A DNA stretch of 32,490 nt from Ectocarpus siliculosus. Taxonomy: Eukaryota > Sar > Phaeophyceae > Ectocarpales > Ectocarpaceae. The notes beneath the pieces were generated by a model, which did no database searches, had not been told where the DNA came from, and worked only from the letters and a program-made list of their open reading frames with translations. A program made the translations under genes and the position numbers. Shown here in pieces: positions 304-32,407 of this stretch; the first letter of the stretch is position 1, and every line of letters begins with the position of its first letter. The stretch is taken from contig FN649749.1 of NCBI GenBank assembly GCA_000310025.1, forward strand, positions 1,979,014 to 2,011,503, read 5' to 3'.

Positions 304-1989
304 CTGGAGGTCCTTCATCGAAATCAGGCAGGCGTCGTTCGGTCGAAGGCGCCCCATCGCGATGTACATGTAAATGCGGTCCACCGACACGGTCTCGAAC
401 GACTCATCGGCCCTGGCCCCATACGAAACGCAAAAAAAAAAAAAAAAGGAAAAAAAAAGGAGTGTACAGCAGCGGGGGGGGAATGCACATCAGCGGGGCG
501 CACTCACTCATGTTTTGCATGTCTTAGCGGATAGGTCGTTGACCACGCGTCCTCGACTGGACGGAGCATTGTTGCCACAGGACCGATCACCGATGGCCGA
601 ATTGTTATTTGTAAGAGCCTGATGTACGTAGGAGTGTCCAAGGAGAGTGTAATGGTGGGGGCCTGGGGGCGTCGGCATGTTGGCACGCGCGTTTACCCTC
701 ATTTCGCGTTCCTACATCCGTAGGCTAACCTTTTTGCATGTTGCTTCCTCGTGTCTGTGTGTGCGTTTTTCGCTCGCGTTTGTTGCCAAATTTCAATTCG
801 CTTGTGTGCCAATTCAGCGACACCGGGCCTTCCGCAGGACAACCAAAGCTCGCACGAGGTGACATTCGCGGCCAAACAGCAGTAGTCGGGTCCCAATCGA
901 GTGCGTACTTCTACTTGGCGAGGTGCCCTGCTTCGCAGTCAAGTGGCACACAAATGCCGTCGTGTGTGTGTGTGTGTGTGTGTGCCAGTGCTAACGATGG
1001 ATTTCGACCAAAATGAAGCGACCGACGCGTTGCTTTCGCTCGACACTGAGGACGGCGACAGCAGCTCCATCGTCGTGCATATATGAATGGTGCGGTTTGA
1101 GTAGTCAAAGATAAGGCCGCGGTGGTGGGTCGGATACACCAAGATACGCCGAAGACTTGTGTTCTCTCTGCTTCTATCAACAACAGCTGCTGTGCGTACA
1201 GCTGCAGGTGCTCGTTGCCAAGAAGTTGGGAGACAACGGCCAACATTGCTCAATTTCCGCGTTTTGAGGCAGAAAGGGCTCACTTGTGGGTAGGTTGCAC
1301 GCGCAGTCGCAACAGCGAGTAGAAGGGGAACCAGGCACACACCGGCGCTGGGAAGATGGCCACCAAACAGCATACTGACTGTCGGAGTCGCGGTACTGTT
1401 TCGTACGCACAACAGCGGTGTAGACTAACGCAACAGGCAATAGAGCGTGTGCATAAGAATCTGTTGCACAATTTGTATTGAAGCAACAGCGAGTTCAAAC
1501 ATCAACGCCGCCATGCGAGCTCATGCATGTCATAATCCACTGGAGGCCACAGCGAGTCCGGTCATGGTACAGAACATGCATACAAGTAGTGTGGTGAGCG
1601 TACACATGCTGCTTTTTCCTCCCCTCAGCACGTGCCTCTCTCGCGTGTTCGACGCTTGCTCACCCATTCTTGAACCCACGCTTGGGAATCCTTCGGTGGA
1701 AAGGAGTCTGGCCTCCCTCGAACCCTATCCTCTTAGTCCCCTTGCGCGCCTTGGAGCCCTTGTGCCCCTTGCCGCACGTCTTCCCAGTGCCCGAGCCGTT
1801 GCCCCTGCCAACGCGCTTGCGATCTCTCCTGGCCCCATCGTTTGGAGCAAGGTTGTTGAGCCTCAAGGGCGGCGCGAACGAGGCAGCAGCTGCCGCGCTG
1901 AGCCCACGGAAGGAGAGCAACGACCCCGGTGATGAGAGCGCACCCTTGGAACAAAGAGCTGCCGAGCAGCGAGCAAGCAGCGTCGCCAT
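304..1989 (-). CDS. mrpl15: mitochondrial ribosomal protein L15 (uL15m), 5' part, two exons
   Basis: Component of the large subunit of the mitochondrial ribosome, encoded in the nucleus. Exon 1 is 1989-1664 and exon 2 is 412-304. Exon 1 starts at ATG 1989 and gives 108 residues. The first ~40 are Ala/Ser/Leu/Arg-rich without acids, as in a mitochondrial presequence. Then come [14 protein letters not shown], the Gly/Lys-rich [20 protein letters not shown] block and [17 protein letters not shown], all diagnostic of uL15. It ends at donor GG|GTGAGC (phase 2). Exon 2 begins after CCAG|GG, which restores Gly, and encodes [19 protein letters not shown] followed by SMKDLQ, then donor CAG|GTGAGG (phase 0). 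That segment matches the mitochondrial L15 pattern (GRIDP then a DL block), arguing against a plastid copy. The C-terminal part is not visible and should lie left of the window. An in-frame upstream ATG at 2046 would add 19 residues; I prefer 1989 because it starts the presequence-like stretch. The intron is 1,251 bp. Confidence 0.92.
502..572 (+). repeat. dispersed repeat, copy 1 (paired with 17247-17315)
   Basis: The segment containing CTCATGTTTTGCATG, then GACCACGCGTCCTCGA and GGACGGA, recurs at 17247-17315 in the same orientation. Both copies follow a G-rich tract. This copy lies inside the intron of the L15 gene. The family is not recognised; it looks like the degraded end of a mobile or repetitive element. 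Confidence 0.7.
962..984. repeat. (GT)n microsatellite
   Basis: About 11 GT dinucleotides in the intron of the L15 gene. Confidence 0.9.
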
Positions 1990-3577
1990 GCCCACGAAAT
2001 GGGCGCCACTATTAAATAGCTGGCGGCTGGCGGCGCTGCGCGGCACAATTTGGCTCAGAAACCATAGGTAGGGATAATCTGGGCTATTATATTTTTTTTT
2101 GCGAAAGCCGCAGAATCATTGCGTGGTATCCCTACCCCGTGTGCTTCCCTCTACAATTGTCCGATCTGCGGGGACTCGGACCCTACCACCGCAAGTGGTA
2201 CAGGTACCTCTCACCACCGGACCAGTCAGCAGTACATGGATTTTAGAAGGTGCTGAGCAGAGGTCGGGGCGTTTTTCTCGTATATGCTCACACTTCACAC
2301 AACAATAGAGACAGACGTGAGACGTTGTGTTCGGAAATGGACCCCTTGTATGTAACCCCCCGCCAAAGATATTTTTGAAGTCGAAGTCCCACAGCCGTAC
2401 TCAGCGTGCATGCGCTCGTGCGCTCTACTTTGCGTGCAAAGAGATGTTACACTTTGACTTTCCACCCCCTCCGTCTTGCTTTCGTCGTGTCGGGGTGCAC
2501 CACAGGTTGTTGCAGCATGCAGCAAAATTTCGCTGGGAGACGTTGAAAATACGAAATACAGCAGCAGCAAGTAAGTAGTGGGGGGCCAAGTGTAGCGGCC
2601 CCCACCTACAGCAGTGTCACGACGAGATGTTGCCGCTATAAAAGGCAGTTCGCTAAACCGAACTACCAGTTATATTGCTGTTATACTACCGGGGGTGCGG
2701 CGGTGCGACGTGGTTTTGTGGTCACTAAACAGGGCATGGCGCTAAACAGGGACAAACCGCCCCCCCCACCGTAAGCAGTTCTGCGGCTGAGAACGCATAA
2801 TAATAACCGTGTAGAGACGCAAAGCCTCCGCCTTGTGTGCCCTTTTCGATTGGCGATCTCCGCATACACTATAATATTGCTTTTTTATCCCTCTGGCGTT
2901 GCTGTTGTCAGCAGCCACAACTCGACAAAGATGGAGCACGCCACTACTTGCTACAATACACGATACCAGACGAGATACTTGAACACGATACAGAAGCAGC
3001 GACCTTCCCGTCATTTCTGCACGCTCGGCCAGAGATTTCGAGACCACCGTCTGCCTTCTGCTCGGAGAGACTAACCCAACCGTGTCGCCTTCTGGAAAAC
3101 ATGACAAAAAACAGCTGGCAACTACAAAGAAGAACGGAAAAACCTCTGCAACACAAGAATGCCAGGCCGCCCCGTCCTCGTCAGCAGTACAAGCCCACGC
3201 CTATCGTTTCAGGAGTTCAAGAGGCATTCCCATCTCCCCCCTCTCCCCCCTCTCCCGGTCTCTCTGGTTCTTACTCCATGTTCAACTAGAGACTTTTCAT
3301 TGAGCGATGGGCTTTTGCTCGTGCTCGGTGGTTGCTGGTACATACTGCTGCGGCCACAGACACTACACCGGTACAGCATCATTCGTCTAGAAGCACTCCC
3401 TCCGACAACAGAGCAATCGAAAACCACTACAAGGCCGCTACCCACCCCCACCATCTGCCGTTTCGACCGAACCGGCACCGTTTCTATGTGTCGCCGTTCT
3501 TTGTGGCCCATCCCTTCCCTGCACGCGGTTCTTAACCCAGTTTTTCTAAAAACATTTTATGATCATGTTGTAAAATT
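1990..3577. other. intergenic stretch between L15 and the helicase exons
   Basis: Holds the presumed upstream region of the minus-strand L15 gene, with a T-rich TATATT tract near 2087-2100. A plus-strand TATAAAAG lies at 2637-2644. About 200 bp after that is a 150-codon plus-strand ORF (2837-3289) that starts MPFSIGDLRIHY, ends Pro/Ser-rich and resembles no family I know. I cannot tell whether the TATAAAAG and this ORF form a small gene or are chance. One TACAGCAG motif occurs at 2607. Confidence 0.4.
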
Positions 3578-5501: not shown

Positions 5502-6470
5502 CTGTGATTTTCTGCATCGCAGCACACTTGGGAGTGATGAAGAGACTGTCGAACGGGAACACGCCTGGACCTCCCTTTGGTGCTTTCACACCGCCGGCAT
5601 GGTGGACGATGTTCTTGTCGATCGTCTTCTTCAGTTGGTCGATGAAAGCGAGCTGCGCAGGCGACACCCGGTCGCTGTCATCGGCACCACTTGCCCCCCC
5701 CTCCACCTCGGGGGGTCCTGCCCCGCCACCTCCTCCGGCGCCGTGACCTCCAACCGCTCCTCCTCTCGGTTGCTGTTCTCCGCGCACTCCAGCTCCTCCA
5801 GTCCCCTCCCCGCGCCCACCCCGCTCGCACAGGTTGGCGGCTTCCACGGCCTTGACGTACGCCGGTAACTGGTGCTGCTGGTGTTGACGCACTCGCGCCC
5901 ACTGCTGTCGCCGCCACGACTGCGTCTGCTGCTGCTGCCAGCTCTGCTGCTGTTGCTACCCCTCCAGCTCCTTGTTGCGGCGGCGGTGGTGGTGGGGCTG
6001 CTGCTCCCCCTTGCGAAGAAGCATGGCGAGCTTTTCCCTTCCCTTTACTCGACCCTCGCGGTTGTTGTTGAGGTGGTGCTGCGGGTCGTGGCGCTCCTTC
6101 ATGACCCGGTCCGCTGCTGCTGCAGTTGGGCGATCCACCAGCAGCGTTTCTGGCATCTGTGCTGCTCTCCCCGACGCCCTGACCTTCATTTGAACTCACA
6201 TTGTTTCCCTCCCCACCCTGAGCACCACCTACTCGTGGGCGCTTCGAGGTCGACCCTCCTGACAGCCACGACTGCATGCCTCGCGCCTGCTGTGCGATGT
6301 CTCTTGCAGGCTGCTGTCTTTTCTGATTGTGTCCTCGCGCCGGGTCTTTTGGACCCGGGTCCGGGCCTCGACCCTTCGTTGCGGCCCATGGCGGTGGGTG
6401 CTGCTCCCACGGGGGTGGGTGGTATGCGCGTGGGTTCGCGTGGCGCGTAGGTGAGCTTGCGGTAGCATTG
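5502..6470 (-). CDS. putative long exon(s), Gly/Pro/Ala/Gln-rich protein with a conserved-looking tail
   Basis: Minus-strand open reading begins after TACTGCAG at 6471 and reads Pro/Gly/Ser-rich, low-complexity sequence (for example PPPWEQHPPPW, SKRPRVGGAQGGEGN, PPPPPPQQ). Near 5955-5850 the coding frame changes. Below it a second frame reads LPAYVKAVEAANLCERGG, a Gly-rich stretch, then QLAFIDQLKKTIDKNIVHHA and GVFPFDSLFITPKCAAMQ, and ends at a clean donor CACAG|GTATGT (phase 1). The switch could be a very short intron (GTAGCAAC near 5958 to one of several in-phase CAG acceptors, about 80 bp) or a single-base indel in a CAG-rich tract. Predicted mostly disordered with one ordered C-terminal segment. 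Family not recognised; a nuclear regulatory protein is only a guess from composition. Confidence 0.5.
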
Positions 6471-6780
6471 CTGCAGTACAGCAGTGCAGTCGGCACAAAA
6501 AGCGCGGGTCAACCACCTCGTGCTACCCTAACCCGCCAATCACGAGCTGTCGTTTTTAAGTCGTTTTTAAGAATCAGTCCGGAAGGACCTGCTTTGGACC
6601 AATGGAATTGCGTCGTTTTTAAGAAATCATCCCTACCCATCGTCCCTGATTTGACCCAACAAGGGACTCCGCAACTACGAAACTGATGGTGAGGGGGAGC
6701 ACAACCCCCCCGCCGCATGATGCATCTCGTCTTTATTATGTGACTCACGATCTGCGGTGTAGCAGTGTAGACTACCGTGC

Positions 6781-6819: not shown

Positions 6820-9198
6820 ATTAACGCACACCACGCATGACCGAATCTGCGGCGCTATCGCGACCTCCACGTTTCAAACGCACGGCGTGGTGTACGCGAT
6901 GGTGGAACATTTCATGGTTCAAAATCTTGAAATCTGAATCTTCCCAGCAACGGCAGTTTGCAATGTAGGATGCCCACCACCCCCCACCCCCCACTACATG
7001 TAGGCGGCTGCGGTACAGCCGCGCACACAAGGCGGCTACTACCGGTTCGCCACGTTGTGCGTGCATCATCCTGTGGTAGTTAATTCTGGTGCACACACGT
7101 TGCAAGGTCGTTGCCTCTCTGTGCCAGATGCGCGCATCTGGTGCGTGTCGATGCCTGAGACTATTTAGTGCGTGTGTATCCACTCGATAGATGAATCCAA
7201 TCCGCCCGGAGGAAGGTGACACCGAGAGCAAAAATATCCATCTTGACACACCAGTCGATGCACGAAAAGGTGGGTACTGGATGTCTCAATTGTATTCGCT
7301 GCCATCGGCATGCGGGTCGCTTGCCTACCCGCATATATGTCAAATGTGCCGGTTGATCGAACGTCGTCTGTTGGTTCAGCAGCAGCGGCAACTACAGTAC
7401 TACAGCAGTACCCTGCAACAACAGCACAACACGCAGGACCGCACATGCACCTCAAGAGGCGAATACAGACCCCTGGGTTTGGACACACACATGCGTAGCC
7501 CCCTCGGCCGCCTCTCTGGCGTGTGCGTGCATCAAGCGATCAACAACCTGATGACAATACGCCGAACAATAAACGGCAGAAGACACACAAACGACACACG
7601 CACCGCACGTCGCTAGACTGTTACATGCATACACTTGTAGTACCACAACGCGCAACATCCAGCCAAAGGTGAAACAACGGACGTGCGTAAGCACCGTGAA
7701 TCCAAGCTATTACAGGGTAAACACGGCCATACGGGCTAATAAGTACAACATCGGGGCGTGGCTTTGGCCATATCGAGGAACATGATATTACTCTTGTCTT
7801 TACAGACTACAAACGGAGGGACCCGCACCGCTCGCCACCATCTTGTACACAAATCTGCAGGAGAGCACATCATCAGTAGATAGCTCACACCGCAGGCAAG
7901 ACAGCCTTCGCCACACCGTGCCGCCTGAACCGCATTTGTTCGGAAATATAGGGACCATCGAGAAAGTCATGCTACATAGTATTCGGATGGTCCTTGTATT
8001 TCAAAACAAAGTGGAACACACACACTCACGGCTTAGCGCGTTCGATGCAACTCTGACAAATCGAATTTGCTTTCCTAGAGCTCGGCATCGCTGCAACAAC
8101 ATCAAAAGACCGCGAACAGATCGGCGAAACACCAAACTACGTGACAGCCTTGTACCGCACCGTGCGAAGAATAAAACAGAGGTCTAAACGACACAAAAAC
8201 TCCAATACCACAGGACGCCTACACCGCACAGGCATGATCAACCAACAAAGGTCAACCAAAATTCAGACAAGTCCTACATCAACAAATAAAAAGTATGTAC
8301 GATAAGCGGCATGAGGTTTCCATGCAGGCACGCATGCATCCACCATGGCCGGGGTACGGGTGCATGAAAAGGAGCAGCACTCAAAAACAAATCTAGGGCT
8401 TGCAAGCCCGTTATCAAAGGCGAAGTACACGCTCCGAGGTCCCGTACCGCCCACAACAAAGAAGCACAGAGGTTCTAGCGTGCTCCGTCTAGGATATACA
8501 CAAAAATACACACAACACAAAGCGTTAACAACGTCGGCGTAGGAATTAAAAGGTGATTGGTGAGGCATTACACCCACCAGGAAAATTTTGCAAAACGAAG
8601 ACGCACGACCCACACCCTTTTACTGGCAACGGTACACCTTAAGCGGGTACTGCGCAACGGAAACCTTTCCAGCCGGTTTCCCTCCACTCACTCAAAAGAC
8701 TTCAGCACATCCCTTTCGGCTGTGGTTATATCTCGAACGGGCATTATTCTTTCTGTGAGATCATGCACACTTTCTAGAAACCTAAAGCAGTAGACGTGGC
8801 GAGAGAGGATCCTCAGTAAGAACGAATCGATCCCCTCGACAACAGGTGCAAAACTAAAAAGTACAAAAATAAGCTGACCCTAAAACAACGAATTCCCTAC
8901 AAGAACTAATCGGATGCCCCGTACCGGTAAGGTGTTCGCCTGGAGACATGGCCGGACATGTCACCCTCTGTCATGAATCTGCGGATACCCCGTGACGTGA
9001 CAACAGCTTGAGTCGAATCAACCGTTCGCTGCCACGGCGGCTGCATCTACCTCATCGGCCAAGCAGAACTAACCCCCTTGGCGCCGTGCAGGCATAATCC
9101 TGGATGAAATCAGAACGAGGCAAGAGAATAGGCATTCCGAGAAAGCGTCGAGGGGGACACAAATGGAGGGTCAAGATCCAGATGCAGCGCCCGCACTA
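6820..9198. other. about 2.4 kb with no recognisable gene
   Basis: I see only short, unconvincing ORFs here, the longest being 114 to 142 codons with no family resemblance. It holds a TACAGCAG motif at 7401 and a dispersed repeat copy at 8726-8780. It could be a long intron of the minus-strand gene complex or an intergenic region. Confidence 0.4.
8726..8780 (+). repeat. dispersed repeat, copy 1 (paired with 27624-27682)
   Basis: Contains TATATCTCGAACGGGCA, then TTTCTGTG-GAG and a TTTC-TAG-AA end. The same ordered blocks occur at 27624-27682 in intron 1 of the UBL3-like gene. A short diverged dispersed repeat of unknown family. Confidence 0.55.
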
Positions 9199-9200
9199 AA

Positions 9201-11871: not shown

Positions 11872-13755
11872 AAAAATATTGTGTAATTGTTGTAGTTGTT
11901 GTTGTTGCTGCTGATGTTGTTGCTGCAGGTGATGCCTCCACTGCTGAAACAAAAGCTGTTGCCCCTGCTGTTGATGAACGTGCTGCGGGTGCTGCTGCGG
12001 ATGATGCTGCGGATGCTGCTGCTGCGGATGCTGCTGCGGATGCCGGTGCTGCTGTTGATAACGATCGTGCTGCTGTTGAAAACGATCTTGCTGCTGTTGA
12101 TAGCGATCTTGCTGATGATGATGATGATGATGCTGCTGCTCCTGGTGGTGGTGCCGATGGTGGTACTGCTGCTGCTGCTGCTCCTGCTCCTGCTCGTGCT
12201 GATGCCGTCCAGACTGCTTCAAGCCGACATGGCCACACCACCTGTCCCACGTCGCCACAAAAATGCCGTAGCTGGGGGTCGGGGTCCAACGCCTCGAGTT
12301 CTTGGGTTGCTCCGCCACGCTGTCCTGCCGCCGCCTCTCCCAATCACGCACGAAGAGGTCATAAATGGCCTGCACCGCAGTGAATTACAAAAAAAATAAT
12401 CACAACAGTGCTTGTTTCGTCAAGAAGACTATTTGGGGACATTCTTTCCGTGTGCGGAACTCCACAGGGCTCCGCAATAAAAAAAATCCATCCCGAAGAA
12501 AAACGAGATGAGTAAAACCAAAATACATTGTAGCCTGAACCGGACGAGACACCCTAACTACCCTGGGAAAATGTTCCGGCATACAAGTGATTCCTCCGGA
12601 GTAGGCTCGTGAGAGCATAGCAGTGTCGGCAAGGGGTGATGCAAGATGTGAAAAAAAAAACGGCAGAAAGAGGACCAGCCCACAGCTGGCAAGAAGAAGT
12701 AGCGCTTTCCTTCCCGGCATCGGCATCAGCGGGCAAGAAGAAAATTCTAAAAAGACTACTAAGAATGGGATTTGTGGTTCGTCGTCGATTTCTGTTTGGC
12801 CAACAAAACCTTAGAGGTCGAAAACAAAATTGTGCTGCCTCCATCCGAGGGATGACGGTTCAATCGGAAACGAGGCATCCTCGCACCTTCGTCGAATGGT
12901 ACGACATCTCTATGCCCCCGGTTGCTTTCGAGAGAGAGGGATTGTGACACGCAGATAATTATTGGTGAAAAACCTCGGTCGAATAAAAATAAAACAGGAT
13001 TTAGGGTTTGTCGCAGAGTTTTGATTGGTCAAAAAACCTACGGGCGAAAAAAAATGGTGCAGCATCCTTCTGCGCAATGACGGTCCACCGGGACAAAAGA
13101 CATCCTCGCACCTTTCTCGAAGGGTATGACATCTCTACCCGGTTGCTTTCCCCTAGCGGCTGCCAGTGGCTCGCCAGGTCCGTGATGAACGCTTGGATGA
13201 CCTTGGATGCCTCGCACGGCAACCTGACCAAAAACATGTTGAGAAAAACAGAAAAAATTAGGGCGATGTCATCATCATCAACCGGGAGAAAAAAGGGGGT
13301 ATGGACGAATATACATGTGTGCGTAAAAAAAAACCACAACAACGACAACAACAGCGACAACAAAAGCAACAGCAGCAGCAGCAGCAGAACGAGATGCTAG
13401 CGTAGCATTGAGTGTGATACTTCCTAGTTTGTACCACATGAGGTTCTTGATAACCAATACAACAACCCTTACCCATACTAAAATAACACAGTAACCCTTA
13501 CCCATGCCAGAACATGACAACCCTTACCCATACCAACACAATAACACACAACAACACTTACTGGTGGTTGGAGTAGTCGGCCCCGATGCCGGTACGTGGT
13601 GCGGTGGTCCTGCTGTACCATCGCTCCGTTGCCGTGCTGTACCACCAGCCGTCCGGCACTGGTTCCCTGTCGCAAGAGCGGGTGGATGTGATGCCGCTAT
13701 CGAATCGGAACAGCGAGTAGATACGATGGCGCCTTTCTTGAGTCGCTGCTATTTT
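10281..13755 (-). CDS. Gln/His-rich and Ala-rich protein of unknown function, four internal exons
   Basis: Four exons splice without frame conflict: 13755-13562 (acceptor CACAG|AAA, donor CCACCA|GTAAGT), 13223-13139 (GGTCAG|GTT, AACCGG|GTAGAG), 12369-11784 (GTGCAG|GCC, CGAAAC|GTGAGT) and 10468-10281 (CTCCAG|TAA, CTACAG|GTGGAC). They total 1,053 nt, exactly 351 codons. In order they encode an ordered-looking start (RIYSLFRFDSG, PDGWWYSTATERWYSR), LPCEASKVIQAFITDLASHW, AIYDLFVRDWERRRQD and SYGIFVATWDRWCGHVGL. About 140 residues dominated by Gln and His follow (several poly-Gln runs), then an Ala-rich segment ending APKPLAVPLLPAELQ. Both ends are open, so start and stop lie elsewhere. I do not recognise the family. 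Poly-Gln plus poly-Ala is common in transcription and chromatin regulators, but that is only a compositional hint. The exon-4 donor is the weakest boundary. Confidence 0.6.
10469..11783. other. intron of the Gln-rich gene
   Basis: A 1.3-kb intron by the exon model. It contains an (ACA)n tract near 10780-10802 and a pyrimidine-rich run just before the acceptor at 10469. I see no separate gene in it. Confidence 0.5.
11836..12195. repeat. CAG/CTG and related triplet tracts inside the Gln-rich exon
   Basis: Long runs of CTG on the plus strand (CAG on the coding minus strand), including about 12 uninterrupted copies near 11836-11871, interspersed with GGATGCTGC and GATGAT units. They encode the poly-Gln and His-Gln stretches. 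Such tracts are prone to length change. Confidence 0.9.
12790..13150. repeat. tandem duplication spanning an exon 3' end and its intron, period about 221-228 bp
   Basis: The block from about 13020 to 13150 is repeated, diverged, at about 12795-12930. It runs from TTGGTCAAAAAAC through GACGGT-CA, CATCCTCGCACC and CGACATCTCTA to the CCGGTTGCTTT at the exon end. A third partial copy of the TTGGT-AAAAACCT start lies near 12962. The duplicated unit includes the last bases of the 13223-13139 exon and its donor. In the downstream copy the donor is lost (AACCGGGGGCATAG instead of AACCGGGTAGAG). Confidence 0.7.
13461..13535 (+). repeat. short tandem repeat AACCCTTACCCAT x3
   Basis: The 13-mer AACCCTTACCCAT occurs at 13464, 13493 and 13519 (periods 29 and 26 bp) in the intron just downstream (minus orientation) of the donor at 13561. 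Confidence 0.8.
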
Positions 13756-13759: not shown

Positions 13760-14910
13760 GATGTGTGCTTTCCGCCGTGGCCACCCCCAAAAGAGAGTCA
13801 CGCCGTTACGTAGAAACCCGGCCTACTCCCTTCAAATGCCTTCGTTTCAAGGTATGCGGTATACTACGGAGCTTGATATTGTTGTCTGCCGTGCCCCCCT
13901 CCCACACGAGGAGCTACACACGGCGCCACTACATCGAGGGCTTGACAGTTACAACAATCGAGGCTCAAGACTTTCAGAGGCGTAAGAAGCAGAGACGGCA
14001 GACCCCTCGCGGTGTCTGGGTAGAGTTAAGGAGGACTTCCCCACACCGGAAAGCTGCAGAAGCCAAATCCTCACGCTACGGAGACTAAATGATGTGCTAC
14101 CACTCTGTTGTGTAGTAGAAGGACCAATGTGGTGCTCGCGCTTGTATCCGAAAGGTTCGAATGGTCCATACATACATCTCCGAGCAGAGTGGTACCTCAC
14201 TCACGCCTCTTCGGTCTGAAGGGGTCTCGCCAAATTCCACCCGGGAAAACTAGATAATTCGTGTCTTTATCCCCCCACCAAGAGTTAAACAGCAGTACTG
14301 TACCTCGAACCTGGAGAAGGTGACGGCGCAAGCCTAGCGGATATCTTAGCGATCGATGATGCCCTTGGTGCCCGTGAGTAAGGCCTGCTGAAGCCATGCA
14401 TCCACACAATGCTAATCAGCTATATAGCAGGAAAAAAACAACAACTTCTTCGAAGGACGAGAGCAACGTGACCTTCGCAATCATCCAAAAGAAGTGGACA
14501 CGCCCCAGCCTGTGTGGCCCATGAATGTTCATTCTCTTTTCACGAGCAGTCGGGGGACGATCTCCTAGCGGGGGGAGCATCCTTACGTGCACCAAAAAAA
14601 GTAAAAAAAAAGAGGCTAATCTGCTGCCACGGAAATCGATTCGCATGGCACAGCATACTAAAAAGTTTAGCTGTAGAGGACCTGCCAAGCGTTCAACCTC
14701 TAGACAAAAACCAATAAATGAAAAATTCAAAAAAAAACACGCACGGGTCGTCCGGCAAAGCAAGGGTGGTGGCACGCCGAGATGAGAGCCCACGACGACG
14801 CCGCAAAAAAAAACATCAAATGAAACGGAAAAAAAAAACACGGGCTGGTCGTACAAGTAAAAGGGTGGCACAAACTGAGAGCACAAGACGGGGCCGCAAG
14901 GGGGACGACC
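13760..14910. other. about 1.15 kb without a resolvable exon
   Basis: Lies between the strong donor at 14917 and the acceptor at 13756 on the minus strand, so it is probably intronic. It contains several A-rich runs and no ORF that I would defend. Confidence 0.4.
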
Positions 14911-15707: not shown

Positions 15708-15845
15708 CTGGGCGTAGGCGGTGGAGGAAAAGCGGTGGCTCTTTCATTACCGCTTCACCCCAACAAAGGAGCCGGAACTGCTGTACAGTGGTACAAATGA
15801 GCACCGGGAGGGGGCGATGATACCCGCAACACACGGAGACCTTAC

Positions 15846-17440: not shown

Positions 17441-19010
17441 GAGAACGAGGCCCTCGTGGTAAGGCGCGTGTGCTCGCAATCAGGGGCCATTGTGGCTGAT
17501 GTGCCTTGACTCGACGAGATGTGACTCGCGGACGCAGCTGTACGTTCGATTCAACATGCATACACCGCTGCTGCTGCTCTTTCCGAAACGCTCAAAACGA
17601 TACCAACCTAGACGCCCCCCCCAACGGTAGCTTCCTCCCGCCCCACAACCGTAAGAGTCCCCTCTTTTCTTTCGCTGACAGACGACGCAAATCAACCGTG
17701 GTCGAGAACAGCACTGTCCGGTTCGGTCATACATCTACCACGAAGCCACACCGTAAACGGCGGCCGCGTCGCAGGGGCCGTAAGATATTACTCTTCTCGT
17801 ATTCCGTTCAAGGAAGCTAGCTGCGCAGGCGTTCTGGGAAAGAAAAGGGATCGGTCTATAGCTGGGGTCCGCACAGAATGGATCGGTGAAGGGTGGGCTT
17901 ACGGACGCGTTCTACACTCTCGTGAGACCGCAGTTGCGTTTACTGCTGTGCGATGTGGCAACAAGGCATTGACCTCCAACATTCTCTCTTCTCGTCAAGC
18001 GGGAGGACAATCGTAGCAACAGTGCCGCTACAGCAGTACGTGCATAGCTGCTGTTCGTAGGCTCGATTTCGGTTTTGTGCTTCACGCGCATGCAACCCCG
18101 CCTCTAGTGCTGTTGCGATCCGTAGATCTCTCGATCTCTGCATGTCCTTAGCGCATCGCCGGGCGTTAATGGTGGCATGACGTTTTTTCGACACACAACG
18201 TTGTTGCTGCCGTTGCCTCAAGTGTTCGTATGACCCACCCCTTCGCAACAAAGCCGTGCGTCTCGAGCTACGTGTTGCTCGTTTCTCAATGCATTCCCAG
18301 CGTCAACTTTTTGCACCGTCTTAAGAGTGGCCGTTTGTCGGGAGGGTTAAAATCAGCTGATACCTTTATCTCTGTGTGCGTGTGAGACCGTTCCACCTAT
18401 TCTGGCACCAGCCGACACCCCGTTTTCGGTGTACGTTTCTGACGTATCGGCAGGGGGGGGTACAGCAGTATGTGTACCGTGGACAAAATATCACCCATCC
18501 TTCGTCAGCATACGGGGAGAGGAGGATGCTTGAGACGAGGAGTGCAGCTGTTGTTGCTGTGCCTGCTTCGCCAACCGTTCTACAGGTAGCGCCTGCACTC
18601 AAGACTTTCTTAGCAGTTGAGAACCTCATGTCGTATCAAACGTAAGAGCTTGAGCACTGTTTCCTAATCCCGGTCGAGAACCCCCTACACTAAAACCTAT
18701 ATGTATATGTATCATTTCGCCTGTTTTTGTGCTTCGGGACATATTTCGCGGGCGTAAGTCAATCTTTTCTCACGGTTCTTTCTCATGGGCACGCACGAGG
18801 GTCGTCGGTACATTACCGCGCACGCCCGAGGACCGCGACCCACCCGTGGCGCGTGTGCTTGACGCCCAAAGTTGAAAAACTGGCTCTATACCCCGGGGAC
18901 GTGTTCCACGGGAAGAAAGACTTCCCAAGAAATGCAAAAACATTTATTGCTTTCGAAAAAACAGAAGAATCAGAGCACACAAGTCCCACAGAGCATGGGC
19001 AGCACCACGG
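17441..19010. other. about 1.6 kb with no recognisable gene
   Basis: Short unconvincing ORFs only. TACAGCAG motifs at 18029 and 18461, the latter directly after a G8 run. No RNA gene recognised. Confidence 0.4.
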
Positions 19011-19013: not shown

Positions 19014-19412
19014 TACATTAATACACAAGAGCAAGTGATCAACACAGCGGATTACAGCAGCAGCAGCAGTAGGACCTGCATCAAAGACGCCGCTAAAACA
19101 CACACGAACTAACTAACGTACACGCGAACAGCCGTCGCAGCAGCAGGAGGAGGGCCTGCAGCAAAGATGCCACTAAGGCACGCACAAACTAACATACACG
19201 CGAACAGCAACACCGTATGAATACACAAGAGCGAGTGGTCTTACGCAGCGGATTTAAGCAGCAGCAGGACCTGCAACAAAGACGCCGCTAAAGCACACAC
19301 GAACTCACATACACGCGAACAGCAGTCGCATCAGCAGCAGGACGACAGCAGGAGGACTTGCAAGAAAGACGCCGCTGCAGCACACACACGAGCTCACGTA
19401 CAGGCGAACAGC
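19014..19412 (+). repeat. medium-period satellite, about four units
   Basis: Four diverged units, each with CAGCAGCAG, then GGACCTGCA-CAAAGACGCC, then CTAA-GCACACACGAACT and TACACGCGAACAG, starting near 19053, 19137, 19256 and 19330. A higher-order component, ATACACAAGAGC-AGTG followed by CGCAGCGGATT, precedes units 1 and 3 (19021 and 19221), giving a dimeric repeat of about 200 bp. Confidence 0.85.
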
Positions 19413-19551
19413 AGTCTGTGAGAAACAAAAAATACACCGCCCATGGAGCAAGTTGAATGGGTAGTCTTTCTGTGTGTGTATTTATTTTTCCTTAATTAAG
19501 TTCCACGCAAATTCTGCACGTTTGTATTGATTTCCTAAAGAGAGCTTTAAG

Positions 19552-21609: not shown

Positions 21610-22780
21610 GGATGAAGAATATTTCCAAAGAACGCCAAATGGATGGATGGGTCTTCTTCCCGATGAAAGATTCTTCTTCCGTTTTCACGGCAAGAACACC
21701 GCATCCATATCCATCCTCGACTCTTATTCTTTTTTGTGAAGTTGTAGCTAAAAAGTAGCCTCGCCACGTCTGTCTGTCGTTCGCTCTTGATACTGCTGCA
21801 TGACTTCGATCTACCTATCTATCTATTAATGATGCGCGAGACGTGTGTGTGCTGTATACACGGAGGGGTTCACAGGGAGGGGCCGGGATCTATCAATTAG
21901 TTAGCCAGCTACTTTTTTCTAGTCACCGAAGAACGGACAATCTACAGTACATCGATCATGTGTCCTTTCTTCCCGAATTACTTTTGAACACGGTGAACAG
22001 CGCTTTATAATGCGGTATGCATCCATCCTCAACTTTTATCGGTTTCGTACCCAGAAGCGGCCTAGCCGGGGCTGCTGTTGTTGTTGTTACTGCTGTACGA
22101 TATCTCTCCATCTATCTACATGTATGTCTATCCTGTTTGTGGGAGGCATGTGCTGTGTACAGCAGTAGTAGTGCACGCAGAGAACGGGATCTTTCTTCCT
22201 GCATCAATTGCCTGCACATGAATGATGATGACTCCATCTATCCTAATGTAGACTATGTGTGAGAGGAATGTCATGTCATGTGCCAGGCACATGAAATCCT
22301 TTTCGGCGAATCTTCTTCAGTTTTCAAAACATGAACTCTTCTTGTTGTGTAGCCAACGCGGCCTCGTGGGTCTGCTGTTGTTTATATTTACTACTATACG
22401 CTGTGTGAAGTCTCTCTACACTGCTGTAAGACTGGTACCACTATTTTATGATTTGGCAGGAATAAATACACTGCTGTACACGCAAGAATCCGTCGGAAAG
22501 CCACACCTACCTACTACCTCTCTCTCCCCGACACACAGCAACCCATTTATTTTGAAACGAATAAGGGACTACGTACAGCAGCAGCTAGAGTACACTCTGT
22601 AGTATAGTATTCAGGAACAGGCAGGCAGAGGTAGGTACAGAGCACGCTGCTTTTCGTATAATATGCATGTGCATACAGCAGTGCATACAGCAGTAGATGT
22701 CACCTTTCCTTTCAACGGATGGACTTTTTTTTTTGTGCCCCCCTCCTACATACCGCTGTTGCATATATGTATGTACTTTT
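21610..22780. other. about 1.2 kb without a recognisable gene, rich in TACAGCAG motifs
   Basis: No defended ORF. Seven TACAGCAG/CTGCTGTA motifs (22090, 22158, 22421, 22471, 22574, 22674, 22686) lie within 600 bp, the densest cluster in the window. Confidence 0.5.
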
Positions 22781-24197: not shown

Positions 24198-24463
24198 CGA
24201 ACAACCTTCATATCCCCACCCCAGGCTCAGGTCAAAATACCTTCTTCCAGAGCATCTCAGCGGGAATAAATTCAAAACACGTTCAAGTAGCCGGTCATCC
24301 TCAGCAAACCTACCAAAGTGTCGCACACTACCTTCAACTCATGGCAAACCCAACCACCTACGGAACGGGAACAGAGATTGTAGCTGCCCAACAGCAGTTG
24401 TACAACATGAACATCAAAATTACACTCGTTGGTCAACCGTACCCGCCTCCACCGTCCGATTGA
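24158..24463 (+). pseudogene. OTU-like cysteine protease domain relic
   Basis: 101-codon frame resembling the OTU deubiquitinase fold. GQNTFFQSISAGI (residues 25-37) fits the OTU catalytic Cys block (usually DGNCLFRAIS), with Thr where Cys is expected and no Asp. YLQLMANPTTYGTGTEIVAA (58-77) and QLYNMNIKITLV (80-91) fit the block normally written YL..M...TWGG..ELQALA..FNVNI. The catalytic His end is not seen. Family knowledge: OTU domains are carried by several transposon groups as well as by cellular proteases. The missing Cys, the lack of a start in good context and adjacent repeats suggest a dead transposon-borne copy. The assignment rests on pattern memory only. Confidence 0.4.
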
Positions 24464-24608: not shown

Positions 24609-24695
24609 TCTAGCCCACAAGAGGAACCAACCGCAACGACAACACCAGCCTCGGCCGAAACTATCAAAGTAGAGGTTGCGGGCGTTGTCTGTATC
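24609..24695 (+). repeat. dispersed repeat, copy 2 (paired with 9551-9640)
   Basis: Same ordered blocks (TAGCCCACAAGAGGAAC, CCAGCCTCGGCCGA, TATCAAAGTAGAGGTT) as at 9551-9640. It lies about 150 bp after the OTU-like ORF and could be the 3' end of the same element family. Confidence 0.75.
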
Positions 24696-25000
24696 CCTTG
24701 ATGCTGCTGCTTGGAGGGACGTTCGGGCTAAAAGGAACCAGCAGCCCCAAGGCGTGGTCAAACGGAGGACGCCACAGCAGTTGCTGGGCGATGCTAGGCC
24801 AAGAACTACACGCGGCGGCAGTGCGACGAGGAGCACACGCACACACGCAAGTTTGTACGGCAGGATGCCAACAAAGCAGCACTAGACCGTGGTCGGTCGT
24901 CAAAGCAGGGTGCCGAACCGTCAACAACCCTTCGGTGCTGTTTCCAAGGTGGCTGCAGTTGTATCGCTTTGCAGTGATCTTCGCAGGGTTTTTCGAGTAT

Positions 25001-25060: not shown

Positions 25061-25446
25061 TGTTAATATTTCCTCATAAACTTGACTTATCGCGAAGGCG
25101 TCCTTTCTTCCAGGAGCCTTGCGTTGGGGGTATGTAGGCACGTAGGCACTACTTCCCTACACCTAAGAAAGTGTTTCGCATGTACAGTAGGCATTTTTGT
25201 CCCGAAAAGCAGGGCATGGAAAGCTGCACCTCCAACTGCATCCACCGCCAATCAACTGGTACTGCTGTCGAGCGAATAGTCCCAGGGAAAAATACAACAG
25301 GTGGTGCGCCAAATTCTTTATTTCTGTTGGTGCGGGAGGCAACCACCACAAAAAAAAAACAAAGCATACAATGTACCATTAGTCTACTGCAAGCGCTGTA
25401 TTTCCGTACCTCCAAAAAATTGAATTTCGCACCCATAATTACATAA

Positions 25447-25746: not shown

Positions 25747-26405
25747 ACCTCAACGGTAAATGTAAATCCCACTGCCTCTGTGCCTTGACTTGACGAAAAG
25801 CACACCTTTACTCACGTGTCGCTTTTTTCAAACGAATGCGTACAGCGGGGACGTCTGGTGACCGCGGCTGAATCAACCAAATACAGATCAGTGGATTGAT
25901 TGCTGCTGTGTGAGAGTGTTGTTCTCGGATCGCATGAAGAAACCGCACACAAAGACATCAAAGGACGCGCTCAGAGGTCCTCCGGCTCTGTCAAGGATCT
26001 ATTCTCCTCCTCCTCCTCCACCTCCTCCTCCAATGCTTTTCGGTCTCTGCCTACTGTTGTTCTCTAAGCGCAGCGCGCAGCAAGCAATCGAGGAGCTTGT
26101 CTGCGTTGGAGGCGGCTACCTTACTTGAAGAAGCACGTACCCCAATATGATGCGGACAAAATATCGTACATGTTGCGGGGCCCCGTGCGACCGTGGGTCG
26201 TGTGTGATTGCTTCGTGTACAGCAGCGTCGTCGGTCTCTCTCCCCCACACAGCAGCAGCAGCCGGCTGGCATTTCCCAACGCGAATCCGCACAATCACGC
26301 GCCTCCTTTCCCTGCAGTCGCTGCTATCTTAGGGAGAGAGCGAGGGTTCCCAGCTGCGTGGTCGCAGCCTGAAAAAAAAATATCAAGCACGAGTAAGAAC
26401 AGACA

Positions 26406-26797: not shown

Positions 26798-29700
26798 GTG
26801 TGTGTCTCTCTCTCGCTCTCTCCCGTGTTGGGAACCGCGGGTCGCGGGACGTTGTGGAAGGGCCGTCGGGTGGTGTGTATTGATTCGATATACAGCAAGT
26901 ATCAAATGCAGTGCAAAAAGCGACCAGCACACATCGGTCGTCGTCGGAGGATGAAAAAGTGTGAGCCTGTGGGAGTTGGGAAAAAAGAGTGTTGTTGAAC
27001 GGCAGCAGCAGCAGCAGTGTCAGACGACTAGGTGACGGACTGTGTGTGAGAGAGCCGCGGCAGCAGTTCCACCGCGGCCGGTGTACACAGCAGGACTCGG
27101 AGATGTCGCCGCCGGAAATATATCCATAATAAATCCATAATGAAGAAACCTTCTGTAATTTACCGCCCGCCGCGGCATGTATGTAGCATCCTGTTCTTCG
27201 AGACACGAAACACGGCTGTTCCGAGGAACTTTCGGCCATCAGAACGTGGTCTGGAAGGTTCTGCGCAATGTAGACCAACAGATGGTGGCTTTTAATCAAG
27301 GGGTGCTTTGGAGACTGTGTAGTGTCGTGGGTTGGTCGGCGGAAGAGACCATTGCTTGCATCCTCGAAAAGAAGGGGGCGGGTCATGCGTCAGAAACGTC
27401 AAAAGAGCAAGACCTTGGGACCAAGATATTTCTTTGCGACTAAACAGCAGTCCTCAAGTCAACTCAAGTGGTTGATTTTTTCTTCGTGCTCTCTTCGAGA
27501 TGTAGTGGTATACCGTGCTGATCTTTCTTCCGCCCAGAGCACAGCAGCAGCAGCACCGCCCCTCTTCCTATGTGTACAAAGGATGATGAGCATAAATTTC
27601 GTCAACATCAATAATAAACTGCTGTGGGTATATCTCGAACGGGCAGTCTTTCTGTGTGAGAATATTCATATTTCCTAGTAAATACAGCAGCCTTCCCGAA
27701 AGCATCAAGAGAAGGTCTATGATAGACCAGCAGCCCTCCTCATTAGGTGGGGCACGTTTCCCTTACAATACATACTCCGTACAGCAGTATTGTCTTTTAC
27801 TCTTGTCAGGAGTCCAGGTTGGCGGCGCTCCCGTCCTCGGAACACAAATTAAATTCTCACCACTGCCTACTTCAACACATGTCGATTGGAGTACCCATCT
27901 TGAGTCGGTGTACGTCGTTTACTATATGCTACAGCTCTGTGTAGTGTAGGTTTTCTCGGAAAGGTCACGAGTTTCCGTCGCGCAGATAGACGCCGGAGTA
28001 ATCCCCCCCCCGCCTTGCGGAGTGATCGAGAGGAGTACTGTAGGGGATCAAAGGGCGACAATACCGAAAGGATTTTCAACAGTTTCTGCGCACAGCAGTA
28101 CACCGAAACTAGCATCGCCAGGAGTGCCGAAAAGAACGACCCGCCACCCAACATCTTCCCAGCATATCCTCTACACCTCCCCAGCAAAACATACAGCAGT
28201 CAGATGCACGAGATAGCTACCTAACTACTGCTGTATCTGTTTTGTCGAGCCTGTTACCCATGAGATATCGCTCTGTGCTGCTCGGGGAACGGTAGAAATA
28301 TAAGTTGGTCGCCGTACAACACTATTAATTCATTTCTGACCTACTACATACCACGGGCTCGTACCAGTGCAATGGATGGGTTTGTCGCAAAGGTTCCATG
28401 TAAGAACACGAATTTCGCGCCGCTTCTGGAGTGTGACAAGATTGCCCACAGAAAAAAGATAACACAACAGCGGCAATTTTTTCAGGGTACACCTTGGGAA
28501 AATTCTCGGTGTTTTTTTCCCACCGTGGTGGGCGGTCTCGGTACTGGCGGTAATTACCGCCACTTCTCGGTGGTACCGGGAACCGCCTAAAAAGAACCGC
28601 CATATTGCAGTACCGCCGTACTGCAGTACCGCTAAAATGGTACCGCCGTACTGCGTACCGCCAAAATAGCACCGCCATACTACAGTGCCGCCGTAACAGT
28701 ACCGGTATGTCGCCCGACTCGTGTGAGGTTCCCGTCGCACCTGGGAGATACGCAGTCTAGTGGAGTTACTGTGGACGATGATATGCGTATAACGGTGGTT
28801 CGAGTCCAGCTGCCCTACCTTTCTTTCATAGTTTTTCTTTTTTTCTCGTTCATTTTTTTCTTTTTTTTATTTCATCAATGTGGTCCAACGAATCCATCTC
28901 TATCGAAGAAGAGAGCCTAAGATAGATTAGCAATGAATCCAGAGCGTTAGCGAAAATTCTGTTTTTCCACGATTTCCCGAGCAGCACACAGTGATATCTC
29001 CCCCGTGGGTAACAGGGTCAACAAGACAGTTTGGTAGCCGTCTTGTGTATCTATCTGCATGTTACGCTGGGAAGGTGTAGAGGGAAGAGGTTGGGTAGTT
29101 GGTTCGTCGGGTGTGTGAATATGGGCACCCTCACGGAATGGTGTGCATTTGATATACCCAGACATGTCAGGTAGCAAAGTATCGTTGTTTCAATGTGTAG
29201 GGGGGCACGGGAGAACATTTTTACTCCTCCTCACTGTGTGGTCTACTCAGCAGAATTGATTAAGCAAACATATGGGATAAAGTATTGAATCCGTTCTTTA
29301 GGGTTAGGGATAGGGTTAGGGTTAGGGATAGCGTCTGCGTGCTCCCTCCCTATTCTTTCTCTAGATACTCTTAAAATCCTGCGTAGGCACCCACGCCGCA
29401 AGAGAGAATAGAGGTTCGCCGGGTGATGGGGCGCCCAAGGGCACCGAATGTAGTTTGGCATCGCCATATTATATATTTTGTTTGATATTCTGGTCTCCCG
29501 CGACCGCCGAAGGCGGCCGAAGGCGATGCCGCCATATTTCAGTACCGCCAGGTGAAAACCGCCATATTTTGGTGATACCGGGACCGCCGAAGGCGGTGCC
29601 GCCATATTTCAGTACCGCCAGAAAAATACCGCCATGTTTGGCAGTACCGGGAACCGCCGAAGGCGGTACCGCCATATTTCAGTACCGCCAGAAAAATTCC

Positions 29701-32407
29701 GCCATATTTGGCAGTACCGGGAACCGCCAAAGGCTGTACCGCCGGCAAACGAAGTACCGGGATCCGCCGAAAAGAGTACCGCCACATTGAAGTACCGCCC
29801 CGCCTGTATCCGCCTAAAAAAACGGTACCGAGGTGTACCCTGAAATTTTATTATTAGTGTACCGGGACATCAGTGGTTTTCGGAGGGGAAGCACGCGGGC
29901 GAAGCCCGCGAATACATCTCTGAAGCCCTTTGGTTGTGTTAGGCATGCATACACGCACACATTAAAAGGAGGGCCGCACGCGCTTTCAAAATCTAGCACC
30001 TCTTGCGATGAAGGAAAGGAAACACCAGACAGAGCAAAGGTGTCGTCACCGCGGCAGCAAAGAAGCAACCGTTCATTTGCCCGCCCAGAAAAGTATGCGG
30101 GTCTTCTTCCATCTACGAAGTGTGTATGTTCATGTTGTCTGAAAATGATTGATGATGATTGCCCCAGCGAACAAGAAATCAGACAGATGCCAGAGCGTCA
30201 TCATCATCACACGTTTCCTCAAGTGGTCTGGCGCGCGGCCAACATGGAAACGCGCAGGGATGGAGATCACGGGGGTGGGGGCACTCGCTCGACATAACAA
30301 GCGCGTGTGCGCGCGGGTGATGCTGCTACTCTCCTCTCCCTCCTCGCCCTGCTCCTGAGCTAGTTCTCCTCTTGGTCCTGCTACGGTGGTACTTATCCTA
30401 CAACTCAGTGTGGATCTTGACGTTCGTCGAGACACTTCTGGTTCTTCCTGCGGTGGGCGTGTGGCACATTGCAGCTCGCAGGCTCCTGGCTGTTCGAATT
30501 ATATGTCCTGCCAAAACCAGGCAAATACGAAATGCCCAAAAACAAAAACAAAACTCACACACACATTTATATTCGGTGCCCCGAAAGCGGGGCAATTGCA
30601 AAAATGTCTCGAACGTAGACAAGGCTCCAAGTTAAGATAGAGAAAGCTGATTGGCGGACGCCAAGTTACATCTGTCCCGCCGCCTATATTGCCGAAATGA
30701 GCCTCGCGAAAAAATGAAAACGTACTACTGCTGTAACACCCTCTTGTGCTGTTTTTACCCCTTTCGCTTGACTTTGGCTCTGTTGTTGAAGGTGTCGAAC
30801 CGGTGCAAGATTTGAGTCACGTGCGACTAGTCTGCATGGGGTTCGGGATACTACCGGATGCGAAGAGCCTCACTGGTGAGCTCCTCCCACCAAGCCAGGG
30901 AAGTTGCGCACGTTTGCTCCTGTACAAGAGACTGCCTTCGGCCTATTCCCAGCGCTCATGCGGACATGCTCACCCCCCTCCCCCCGCCGCCGCCGTAGGC
31001 TTGGTTCTTAATCGATCAAGAATGGTCGATAGATATTGGTTGTGTTGTTTTCTAATTTTCTCTCAGGCGTTGGTCATTTTAAATGCTTTGGTCGACAACG
31101 CATGCACGGGTGGGTAAAGAGCTTAGCTGAGTACATATTTGAGTAGTGTTTGACGCTCGGCAGATATATACCACGCTGAGAAATTCATTCTGCGTGCCCC
31201 CCACCGACTGGAGCTCTTCGGTCAGAGGTGAGGAAATGCCGTGTACAGGGTAAGGCAGAAGCTGCGAGCGATGACGAGTTGATGATGGAACGGAGACAAT
31301 GAACTTTCTTCCAATATGCAAGTCTACGTTTTTTCTTTCTTTTTCCTAGTATGACCCAACGAATCCATCTCTATCTAAGAAAAGAGTCTAAGACAGATTA
31401 GCAATGAACCCATAGCGTCAGCGAAGGCTGCCTGTATTTCCACGATTTCCCGAGCAGCACACAGCGATATCTCCCCTGTGGGTAACAGGCTCAACAAGAC
31501 AGTTTGGTCTACCTTTGCTCGCGTGCTGCCTTCTTCTTTTTTCAGAATGCAGAGTGCCACATTTCGACGCACACCCGACGCCCGTAAACGTGGCAATTCG
31601 GCCAAAAAACATCCAAGTGCCGCAATCCGGTGAGTTGTTTTCGTCGAGTATGTCCCGAGTTTTTTCGGGGGGAGGTAGATTTCCCCCCACGGTTGTGGGC
31701 CCTTTTTCGCGCGTGTACGTGTCCTTCCCAATACCTAAGATTATCAAATTCAGTAAGTGTATACCCAAGGGTACACGAAAATTCTCCCATACGGTCCAAT
31801 CTCGGAGATTTGCGGGGAGGGGGGGGGGGGGATTCCGGTAGTCAAATTCCTACATGAACAGCTTATGGTCTCCACGCGGGATTTGAGCCACCTTGCTTGA
31901 TTTTTTCTGTACTGTGATGGCGGGAAGCCGTGTCTTTGCCCTTTTAGGATACGCATTTTTTAGGTGTACAGCAGTATTAACTGAGTAAATTGAGGTTGTT
32001 TTTTTTTTGTGAGCAGCAACGTCAACAATAACGTTGTGACCTCGGTTGTTTTTGTCGCAGACAGCTACCCTAGATTTAGCATTTTCTGAAATATTCCAAT
32101 ATTTACCAGCAAGGCCTTCCTGGTATGTGTGAGCGCGCTCTGATTGGTCGGGGCCGAGATTGAGCTGTGTCTCTTAGGCCTTTTTTCTTGTTTTCCTCGT
32201 CAACAATTTGACATTCTTGTTTTCCTCATCAACAGTGTTGACATGACACCTCTTTCCCTTCGCTGCTTTCGTGTTTGTGCCGATCCCTCTGCGGCGGCGC
32301 GGGGTTTTGATTGGTCGGGGCGGTCGGCCCGCTCAGACGGGGGGCACGCTGCAAAGCAAAACCCGGGGGGGTCGCGGAGGAATCGAGGCTGCTGCACGGT
32401 GTCCTAG
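26406..32407 (+). CDS. membrane-anchored ubiquitin-fold protein (UBL3/MUB family), complete, four exons
   Basis: Exons are 26406-26580, 30792-30875, 31546-31629 and 32337-32407: 414 nt, 137 residues plus stop. Boundaries are CAG|GTAAGC, TTGAAG|GTG, CTG|GTGAGC, TTTCAG|AAT, CCG|GTGAGT and CTCAG|ACG. All introns interrupt codons after base 1, and the split codons restore Gly59, Glu87 and Asp115. Residues 1-20 are an Ala/Gly/Thr-rich leader. The ubiquitin-fold domain runs from LRLKFIFANHDGVVVEF through LVKDLKVALMGRWP, HVRLVCMGFGILPDAKSL and CRVPHFDAHPTPVNVAIRP. The HPTPVNVAIRP strand and the VRLVCMG-GILPDAK block are typical of plant MUB and animal UBL3. A basic linker leads to GCCTVS: CTVS is a CAAX box for prenylation, and the Cys before it is a likely palmitoylation site. 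Family knowledge: these proteins sit on membranes and recruit ubiquitin E2 enzymes (plants) or sort cargo into vesicles (animals); they lack the C-terminal Gly-Gly. Intron lengths are 4,211, 670 and 707 bp. Confidence 0.93.
26766..26822. repeat. (CT)n microsatellite
   Basis: Interrupted CT repeat in intron 1 of the UBL3-like gene. Confidence 0.9.
27624..27682 (+). repeat. dispersed repeat, copy 2 (paired with 8726-8780)
   Basis: TATATCTCGAACGGGCA followed by TTTCTGTG and a CCTAGTAAAT end, parallel to the copy at 8726. A TACAGCAG motif begins at its right end (27683). Confidence 0.55.
28540..28715 (+). repeat. GTACCGCC-rich array, diverged
   Basis: Dense TACCGCC, CCGCCATA-T and GTACTGCAGTACCGC elements, related to the better-preserved array at 29503-29760. 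It lies in intron 1 of the UBL3-like gene. Confidence 0.75.
28743..28815 (+). promoter_or_regulatory. tRNA-like Pol III internal promoter (A and B boxes)
   Basis: A perfect B box GGTTCGAGTCC at 28798-28808 lies 40 bp after an A-box-like TAGTGGAGTTA at 28758; the surrounding GTCTAGTGGAGTTA resembles a tRNA D arm. From GGGAG to GCCC is 73 nt, tRNA size, and T-rich runs follow. The acceptor stem pairs poorly and the T stem has one mismatch, so it is not a functional tRNA. It fits a tRNA pseudogene or the head of a SINE. Confidence 0.4.
28881..29033 (+). repeat. 150-bp dispersed element, copy A (paired with 31353-31509)
   Basis: Shares CCAACGAATCCATCTCTATC, AGATTAGCAATGAA, TTTCCACGATTTCCCGAGCA, GATATCTCCCC-GTGGGTAAC and TCAACAAGACAGTTTGGT with the copy in intron 2. 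It follows the tRNA-like promoter and a T-rich run, so the unit could be a SINE body. Confidence 0.85.
29263..29330 (+). repeat. dispersed repeat with telomere-like end, copy 2
   Basis: TTAAGCAAACATATGGGATA-type start as at 25001, ending in TTTAGGGTTAGGGATAGGGT and further TTAGGG units (29298-29329). An interstitial telomere-like tract inside intron 1 of the UBL3-like gene. Confidence 0.75.
29503..29760 (+). repeat. 70-bp tandem array with perfect ACCGCC-GAA-GGCGGT hairpins
   Basis: Unit starts at 29503, 29583, 29653 and 29723 (periods 80, 70, 70). Unit 1 carries a 10-bp internal duplication. Each unit has ACCGCCGAAGGCGG (stem 6, loop GAA), CCGCCATATTTCAGTACCGC, an A-rich spacer and a CCGCCAT-TTTGG-AGTACCGG half. 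The last unit is mutated at the hairpin (AAGGCTG). Confidence 0.9.
31353..31509 (+). repeat. 150-bp dispersed element, copy B
   Basis: Second copy of the element at 28881-29033, here in intron 2 of the UBL3-like gene and ending only about 36 bp before the exon 3 acceptor. It may therefore carry or overlap the branch-point region. Confidence 0.85.
32187..32246 (+). repeat. two-copy 30-bp tandem repeat in intron 3
   Basis: CTTGTTTTCCTC-TCAACA followed by TTGACAT, twice in succession. A separate TGATTGGTCGGGGC duplication sits at about 32140 and 32308, the second just before exon 4. Confidence 0.8.

Follow-up and report, generated by a model that had tools for sequence, protein, structure and literature searches.

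The window, as we call the whole 32.5-kb stretch of DNA analyzed here, carries on its minus strand at 3581 through 4339 what sequence similarity identifies as pieces of a split UAP56/DDX39/SUB2 RNA helicase gene (matches at 4136 through 4339 and 3581 through 3760; best E values 1.5e-18 and 7.8e-15, respectively), and these pieces mark the window as eukaryotic. Two further frames were named by eye: a ribosomal-L15-like frame within 1663 through 2115 (minus), for which Pfam returned no match, and a ubiquitin-fold-like frame from 26408 (plus). A Pfam search over five open frames gave as its sole match a sub-threshold OTU cysteine protease assignment for 24047 through 24463 (plus; E = 0.0013, 19.7 bits vs. 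a cut-off of 23.3), and an Rfam search gave no match at gathering scores. The stretch at 24611 through 24677, downstream of the OTU-like frame, has a copy at 9551 through 9608, so the frame may belong to a mobile element; in viral_contigs, seven stretches fitted its pattern and none was a relative.

Repeats of several kinds accompany these frames. Minisatellites of GTACCGCC and CAGTACCG units lie at 28552 through 28707 and 29516 through 29799, and a 15-base tandem repeat, AAGAACTTGGCAGTT, runs for 16.3 copies at 9199 through 9449. Short interstitial TTAGGG units (29298 through 29331) fall within a stretch copied at 24999 through 25063. Together with the composition and the CAG tracts, TTAGGG units point to a brown alga as a possible source. 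CCGAC/CCGA repeats (21096 through 21593) flank a 100-base run of N (21141 through 21240), perhaps an assembly gap in the repeat. Searches of viral_contigs with the minisatellite word and with a conserved stretch of a dispersed repeat found nothing related.

Against this background, one short word recurs. The first-pass annotation had reported the octamer TACAGCAG as strongly enriched and mostly outside CAG tracts, and both statements hold. Counting both strands, there are 25 exact copies (17 plus and 8 minus; Table 1): all 23 positions listed earlier (16 plus, 7 minus) are exact, and the copies at 2557 (plus) and 13610 (minus) had been missed. One hundred dinucleotide-preserving shuffles contain a mean of 0.60 copies and a maximum of 4. 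Markov models of orders 1 through 5, trained on hold-out sequence in which all copies of TACAGCAG, ACAGCAGT, and CAGCAGTA were masked and microsatellites kept, predict 0.83 to 4.15 copies of TACAGCAG, 1.08 to 3.68 of ACAGCAGT (29 observed), 0.79 to 4.62 of CAGCAGTA (23 observed), and 0.03 to 0.22 of the 10-mer TACAGCAGTA (10 observed). The octamers thus exceed expectation ∼5- to 30-fold, depending on how strict the model is, and the 10-mer by a larger factor. Against the excess, the in-sample expectation for TACAGCAG climbs from 0.9 at order 1 and 4.4 at order 3 to 15.7 at order 5 and 22.3 at order 6, the last two approaching the observed count; the climb arises because high orders include the word's own 6- and 7-mers. 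Masking runs of 1- to 3-base units, which, counting the 100-base N gap, removes 5.5% of the window, leaves 20 of the 25 copies. Among 8-mers with at least eight copies in the masked window, ACAGCAGT ranks first by z under orders 1 through 3 and fourth under order 4, behind three CCGAC-type words. The over-representation is confirmed as real, with all counts coming from one 32.5-kb window of one genome; within it, the sequence behaves as a highly iterated word, far above Markov expectation, dispersed, and without extended homology.

Table 1. Positions of TACAGCAG and of further ACAGCAGT sites in the window
Feature	Position	Strand	Basis
TACAGCAG	465..472	+	exact match
TACAGCAG, CAG runs on	2557..2564	+	exact match; absent from first-pass list
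TACAGCAG then T	2607..2614	+	exact match
TACAGCAG then T	6477..6484	+	exact match
TACAGCAG then TA	7401..7408	+	exact match
TACAGCAG	13610..13617	-	exact match; absent from first-pass list
TACAGCAG within 312-aa open frame	15556..15563	-	exact match
TACAGCAG then T, within 312-aa open frame	15778..15785	-	exact match
TACAGCAG then TA	18029..18036	+	exact match
TACAGCAG then TA	18461..18468	+	exact match
TACAGCAG heading CAG run in tandem repeat	19053..19060	+	exact match
TACAGCAG then TA, inverted pair with 22158	22090..22097	-	exact match
TACAGCAG then TA, inverted pair with 22090	22158..22165	+	exact match
TACAGCAG then T	22421..22428	-	exact match
TACAGCAG then T	22471..22478	-	exact match
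TACAGCAG, CAG runs on	22574..22581	+	exact match
TACAGCAG then T, 12-base tandem duplication with 22686	22674..22681	+	exact match
TACAGCAG then TA, 12-base tandem duplication with 22674	22686..22693	+	exact match
TACAGCAG	26218..26225	+	exact match
TACAGCAG, differs from repeat copy 8719-8790	27683..27690	+	exact match and alignment
TACAGCAG then TA	27780..27787	+	exact match
TACAGCAG then T, inverted pair with 28228	28192..28199	+	exact match
TACAGCAG then TA, inverted pair with 28192	28228..28235	-	exact match
TACAGCAG then TA	30728..30735	-	exact match
TACAGCAG then TA	31967..31974	+	exact match
ACAGCAGT without leading T	876..883	+	
ACAGCAGT without leading T	5901..5908	-	
ACAGCAGT without leading T	14289..14296	+	
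ACAGCAGT without leading T	17942..17949	-	
ACAGCAGT in tandem repeat copy	19319..19326	+	
ACAGCAGT in tandem repeat copy	19408..19415	+	
ACAGCAGT within OTU-like open frame	24391..24398	+	
ACAGCAGT without leading T	24774..24781	+	
ACAGCAGT without leading T	25261..25268	-	
ACAGCAGT without leading T	27444..27451	+	
ACAGCAGT without leading T	27618..27625	-	
ACAGCAGT without leading T	28092..28099	+	

The word is better stated as ACAGCAGT than as TACAGCAG, and it is often extended to TACAGCAGTA. Among the 29 ACAGCAGT sites, 17 are preceded by T and 15 followed by A, with little information farther out. Copies of TACAGCAG had been described as mostly followed by T or extended to TACAGCAGTA; T comes next in 17 of 25 and TA in only 10, so that "most" is true for T and not for TACAGCAGTA. 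The core is sharp: no single-base change within TACAGCAG or ACAGCAGT has more than 5 copies (range 0 to 5), compared with 25 and 29 for the words themselves, and changes to the outer bases are better tolerated (ACAGCAGC, 25 copies, in which CAG may run on; AACAGCAG, 16; CACAGCAG, 11; GACAGCAG, 9; GCAGCAGT, 9). The motif TAC-N4-GTA occurs 44 times, 20 of which come from the word itself as counted on each strand; other spacings give 10 to 20 (0 through 3 and 5 through 10) or 26 (11 and 12). TACAGCAGTA is not self-complementary, and so lacks the perfect palindrome of a HIP1-type word, and palindromic relatives are rare (TACAGCTGTA at 0 places and TACTGCAGTA at 1 place in the window).

Merging TACAGCAG and ACAGCAGT gives 37 sites (25 plus, 12 minus), which lie closer together than a uniform scatter would place them (nine gaps <100 bases; mean expected 3.9, p = 0.009), with a dense cluster at 22.0 to 22.7 kb. 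A 6.2-kb stretch (7410 through 13607) has neither octamer and two copies of CAGCAGTA, at 10404 and 12164. The density of ACAGCAGT in the window is 0.89 per kb. Pairs of the 10-mer no more than 30 bases apart were found in 113 stretches (the best 80 of the 113 listed) and 7 stretches of viral_contigs and in 33 of genome_contigs; ACAGCAGT is denser than in the window in 9 of these 153 loci (densest, L118), which form no control for density because each was chosen for holding two copies.

The copies had been placed outside exons, with a splicing signal as one possible role. The noncoding placement holds for 23 of 25 copies of TACAGCAG, which lie outside nine coding pieces picked by eye, and is qualified by the copies at 15556 and 15778, inside a 312-aa minus-strand open frame that is a candidate exon at most. 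Between 1 and 17.3 kb, where the UAP56 pieces and the ribosomal-L15-like frame are both on the minus strand, the copies at 465, 2557, 2607, 6477, and 7401 are on the plus strand and those at 13610, 15556, and 15778 on the minus; none of the 25 falls between 3581 and 5700, the region of the UAP56 pieces. Occurrence on both strands makes a signal at the RNA level, and with it the splicing role, unlikely, in a comparison that used partial coding pieces rather than a full exon map.

Beyond the word, the sites have little in common. The in-register identity of their flanks (20 + 20 bases) averages 10.23 of 40 between pairs of sites, and random points give 10.03; the highest value, 23 of 40, belongs to a pair in the 19-kb tandem repeat. 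With the core masked, BLAST of the 100-base flanks matched overlapping neighbors, the 19-kb tandem repeat, and four other stretches of 14 to 16 bases. Flanks at chance identity mean that one repeat consensus does not account for the word, a possibility that the first-pass annotation had raised. Nor were the paired inverted ends and common body of a terminal-repeat transposon found. There are three inverted neighbor pairs <120 bases apart (22090/22158, 22471/22574, and 28192/28228). DNA folding of four stretches, each spanning paired copies, gave z = -2.4 for both 28192/28228 and 22090/22158, -2.3 for the direct pair 2557/2607, where the stem is chiefly a G/C run between the copies, and -0.35 for 22674/22686.

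Several sites lie in repeats whose copies can be aligned within the window. The copy at 28150 through 28310 (minus) has a 12-base stretch including TACAGCAGTA at 28228 that is absent from the copies at 28950 through 29100 and 31420 through 31570; these two agree with each other around the gap and are 86% alike, vs. 71% and 82% to the third copy. A 4-base gap lies ∼30 bases from this site in the same alignment. Site 28192 shows a 3-base gap relative to the 28950 copy (the 31420 copy aligns poorly there), and site 19053 a 6-base gap relative to the copy at 19200 through 19340. At 27683, the copy at 8719 through 8790 has TAAAGCAG in place of TACAGCAG, a substitution, with a 1-base gap immediately before and a 6-base gap immediately after. 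In the 19-kb family, two of four copies have ACAGCAGT and the rest have ACAGCCGT and ACAGCAAC. Each of these differences could be a gain or a loss.

The core of the word is a CAG doublet, and CAG/CTG tracts are common in the window; CAGCAG is the commonest 6-mer after AAAAAA (152 vs. 166; both strands, N runs apart). Isolated CAG doublets have A and T as flanks (A_T) in 29 of 79 cases, vs. 38 of 930 for single CAGs. Flanks of TA on both sides occur 10 times against 0.31 expected from the singles, the highest ratio among triplet doublets with the flank pair seen at least four times. The 29 A_T doublets are a mild excess over the ∼23 given by the doublets' own flank totals, which argues that each flank is preferred and the two are weakly coupled. 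In 41 of 79 doublets, the bases directly adjoining on the two sides are complementary (permutation mean 29.2, p = 0.0006), nine of the 41 being G_C, the frame of a CAG tract; complementarity of the flanking dinucleotides is not significant (13 vs. 8.8, p = 0.08). Raw counts for 11 other triplet doublets between A and T reach no more than four copies each. Against an in-sample second-order model, three AGC/AGT mixtures are in excess (GCAGCAGT, 9 vs. 1.5; AGCAGTAG, 8 vs. 0.8; GCAGTAGT, 5 vs. 0.6), due in part to overlap with the word; 13 of the 20 in-register mixture words have three or fewer copies.

We tentatively favor, while judging it a little short of probable, the view that the word arises as a by-product in neutral DNA, where CAG/CTG triplets would mutate in a context-dependent way. 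A mutation process typical of the lineage would make short CAG/CTG doublets, preferentially between A and T and best with TA on both sides. The near-palindrome TA-CAGCAG-TA could fold on itself through TAC/GTA and GC pairing, leaving two A-A mismatches, and such pairing could aid slippage or template switching at these places; CAG hairpins pair with A-A mismatches. Arguing for this process are the CAG core and the abundance of CAGCAG, the preference for A_T and TA_TA flanks, complementary first flanking bases, the AGC/AGT mixtures in excess, repeat-copy gaps of 12, 3, and 6 bases, and the closeness of neighboring sites; we infer a slippage or hairpin step, which way the repeat copies changed, and neutrality. 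Against it stand the 4-base gap near 28228, the 1-base gap and the substitution at 27683, the scarcity of most AGC/AGT mixtures and of other A_T-flanked doublets, and the dinucleotide result. Plain slippage is a poorer description, as some gaps near word sites are not multiples of three, two units are preferred, and the series is not graded: the counts of TA(CAG)nTA for n = 1 through 5 are 5, 10, 0, 0, and 1, without the graded unit numbers inside identical TA flanks that mark a CAG microsatellite. A plain CAG microsatellite was set aside on this ground and because 20 of the 25 copies lie outside runs of three or more units.

A rather unlikely alternative is that an abundant sequence-specific DNA-binding protein recognizes the word, which selection would maintain on both strands at ∼1 per kb; the protein might be an architectural or general regulatory factor or act in replication or recombination. 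The sharp core suits such a site, as do occurrence on both strands, chance-level flanks, and information largely confined to ∼10 bases, the size of a protein site. Aligned repeat copies, however, mostly do not retain the word; the palindromes TACAGCTGTA and TACTGCAGTA are not favored, unlike the usual homodimer site; and ∼1 per kb plus the cluster at 22.0 to 22.7 kb is, in our judgement, dense for a regulatory site.

It is improbable that the word is a very short element or filler of ∼10 to 12 bases with TACAGCAGTA, copied to new places, for example when breaks are repaired from a fixed template. An element of this kind, very short and spreading, had been proposed earlier, and the 12 bases at 28228, missing from two mutually agreeing repeat copies, give that proposal its footing, together with unrelated flanks and the strong preference for two CAG units. 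Only one site shows this pattern; one deletion may be common to the two copies that lack the 12 bases, the only possible target duplication is two bases (AG, by eye), and other sites show differences of 3 or 6 bases or substitutions. Highly doubtful is a last alternative, that the copies are remnants of old repeat families (e.g., mariner-like ends, TA-CAGCAGT) with only the ends still alike: some copies are within repeat-derived DNA and two inverted pairs fold better than most shuffles, but flank identity is at the random level and the 28192 to 28228 stretch aligns to a copy that lacks the word at both ends, which rules out a 44-base element bounded by this pair.

Fixed short words at such density are known in bacteria (HIP1 and uptake words); to our knowledge, they are unusual in eukaryotes outside repeats. 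A literature search covering titles and the starts of abstracts, with subscription journals mostly outside its range, returned nothing, among the matches listed, on the word in brown algae or other eukaryotes. In Neisseria and Haemophilus, DNA uptake sequences of ∼9 to 12 bases lie on either strand at ∼1 per kb and in some places form inverted pairs; the present word resembles them in length, density, use of both strands, and occasional inverted pairing, whereas uptake sequences serve bacterial transformation. PMC4390886 describes HIP1 (GCGATCGC) as an 8-base word at high frequency in cyanobacterial genomes that is linked to two orphan DNA methyltransferases. The likeness lies in a fixed 8-base word at high frequency; HIP1 is a perfect palindrome of cyanobacteria, whereas ACAGCAGT is a quasi-palindrome in eukaryotic DNA, and the methyltransferase link is one reported for HIP1. 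That the word is a eukaryotic counterpart of HIP1 or uptake words, a ten-base word spread at ∼1 per kb in nuclear DNA by a dedicated process (templated micro-insertion or binding-protein selection), is in our view distinctly unlikely. Should the excess extend genome-wide, it would point to a DNA-binding factor of very high abundance or else to an unknown mutation route by which one word is written repeatedly.

Tc1/mariner elements leave footprints such as TAC(A/T)GTA and TACATGTA, which likewise have TA on both sides of a few bases, and TACATGTA is present at four places. This palindrome (365, 6995, 15467, and 22117) has a strand-summed count of 8 vs. 0.5 expected (first-order model, masked sequence). 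A mariner footprint as the source of the word was rejected: two CAG ends would give TACAGCTGTA, with 0 occurrences. CAG/CTG microsatellites and cryptically simple DNA share the CAG doublet core, and tracts occur in the same window; the word differs from them in its preference for two units and for A_T or TA_TA flanks, which plain slippage does not predict.
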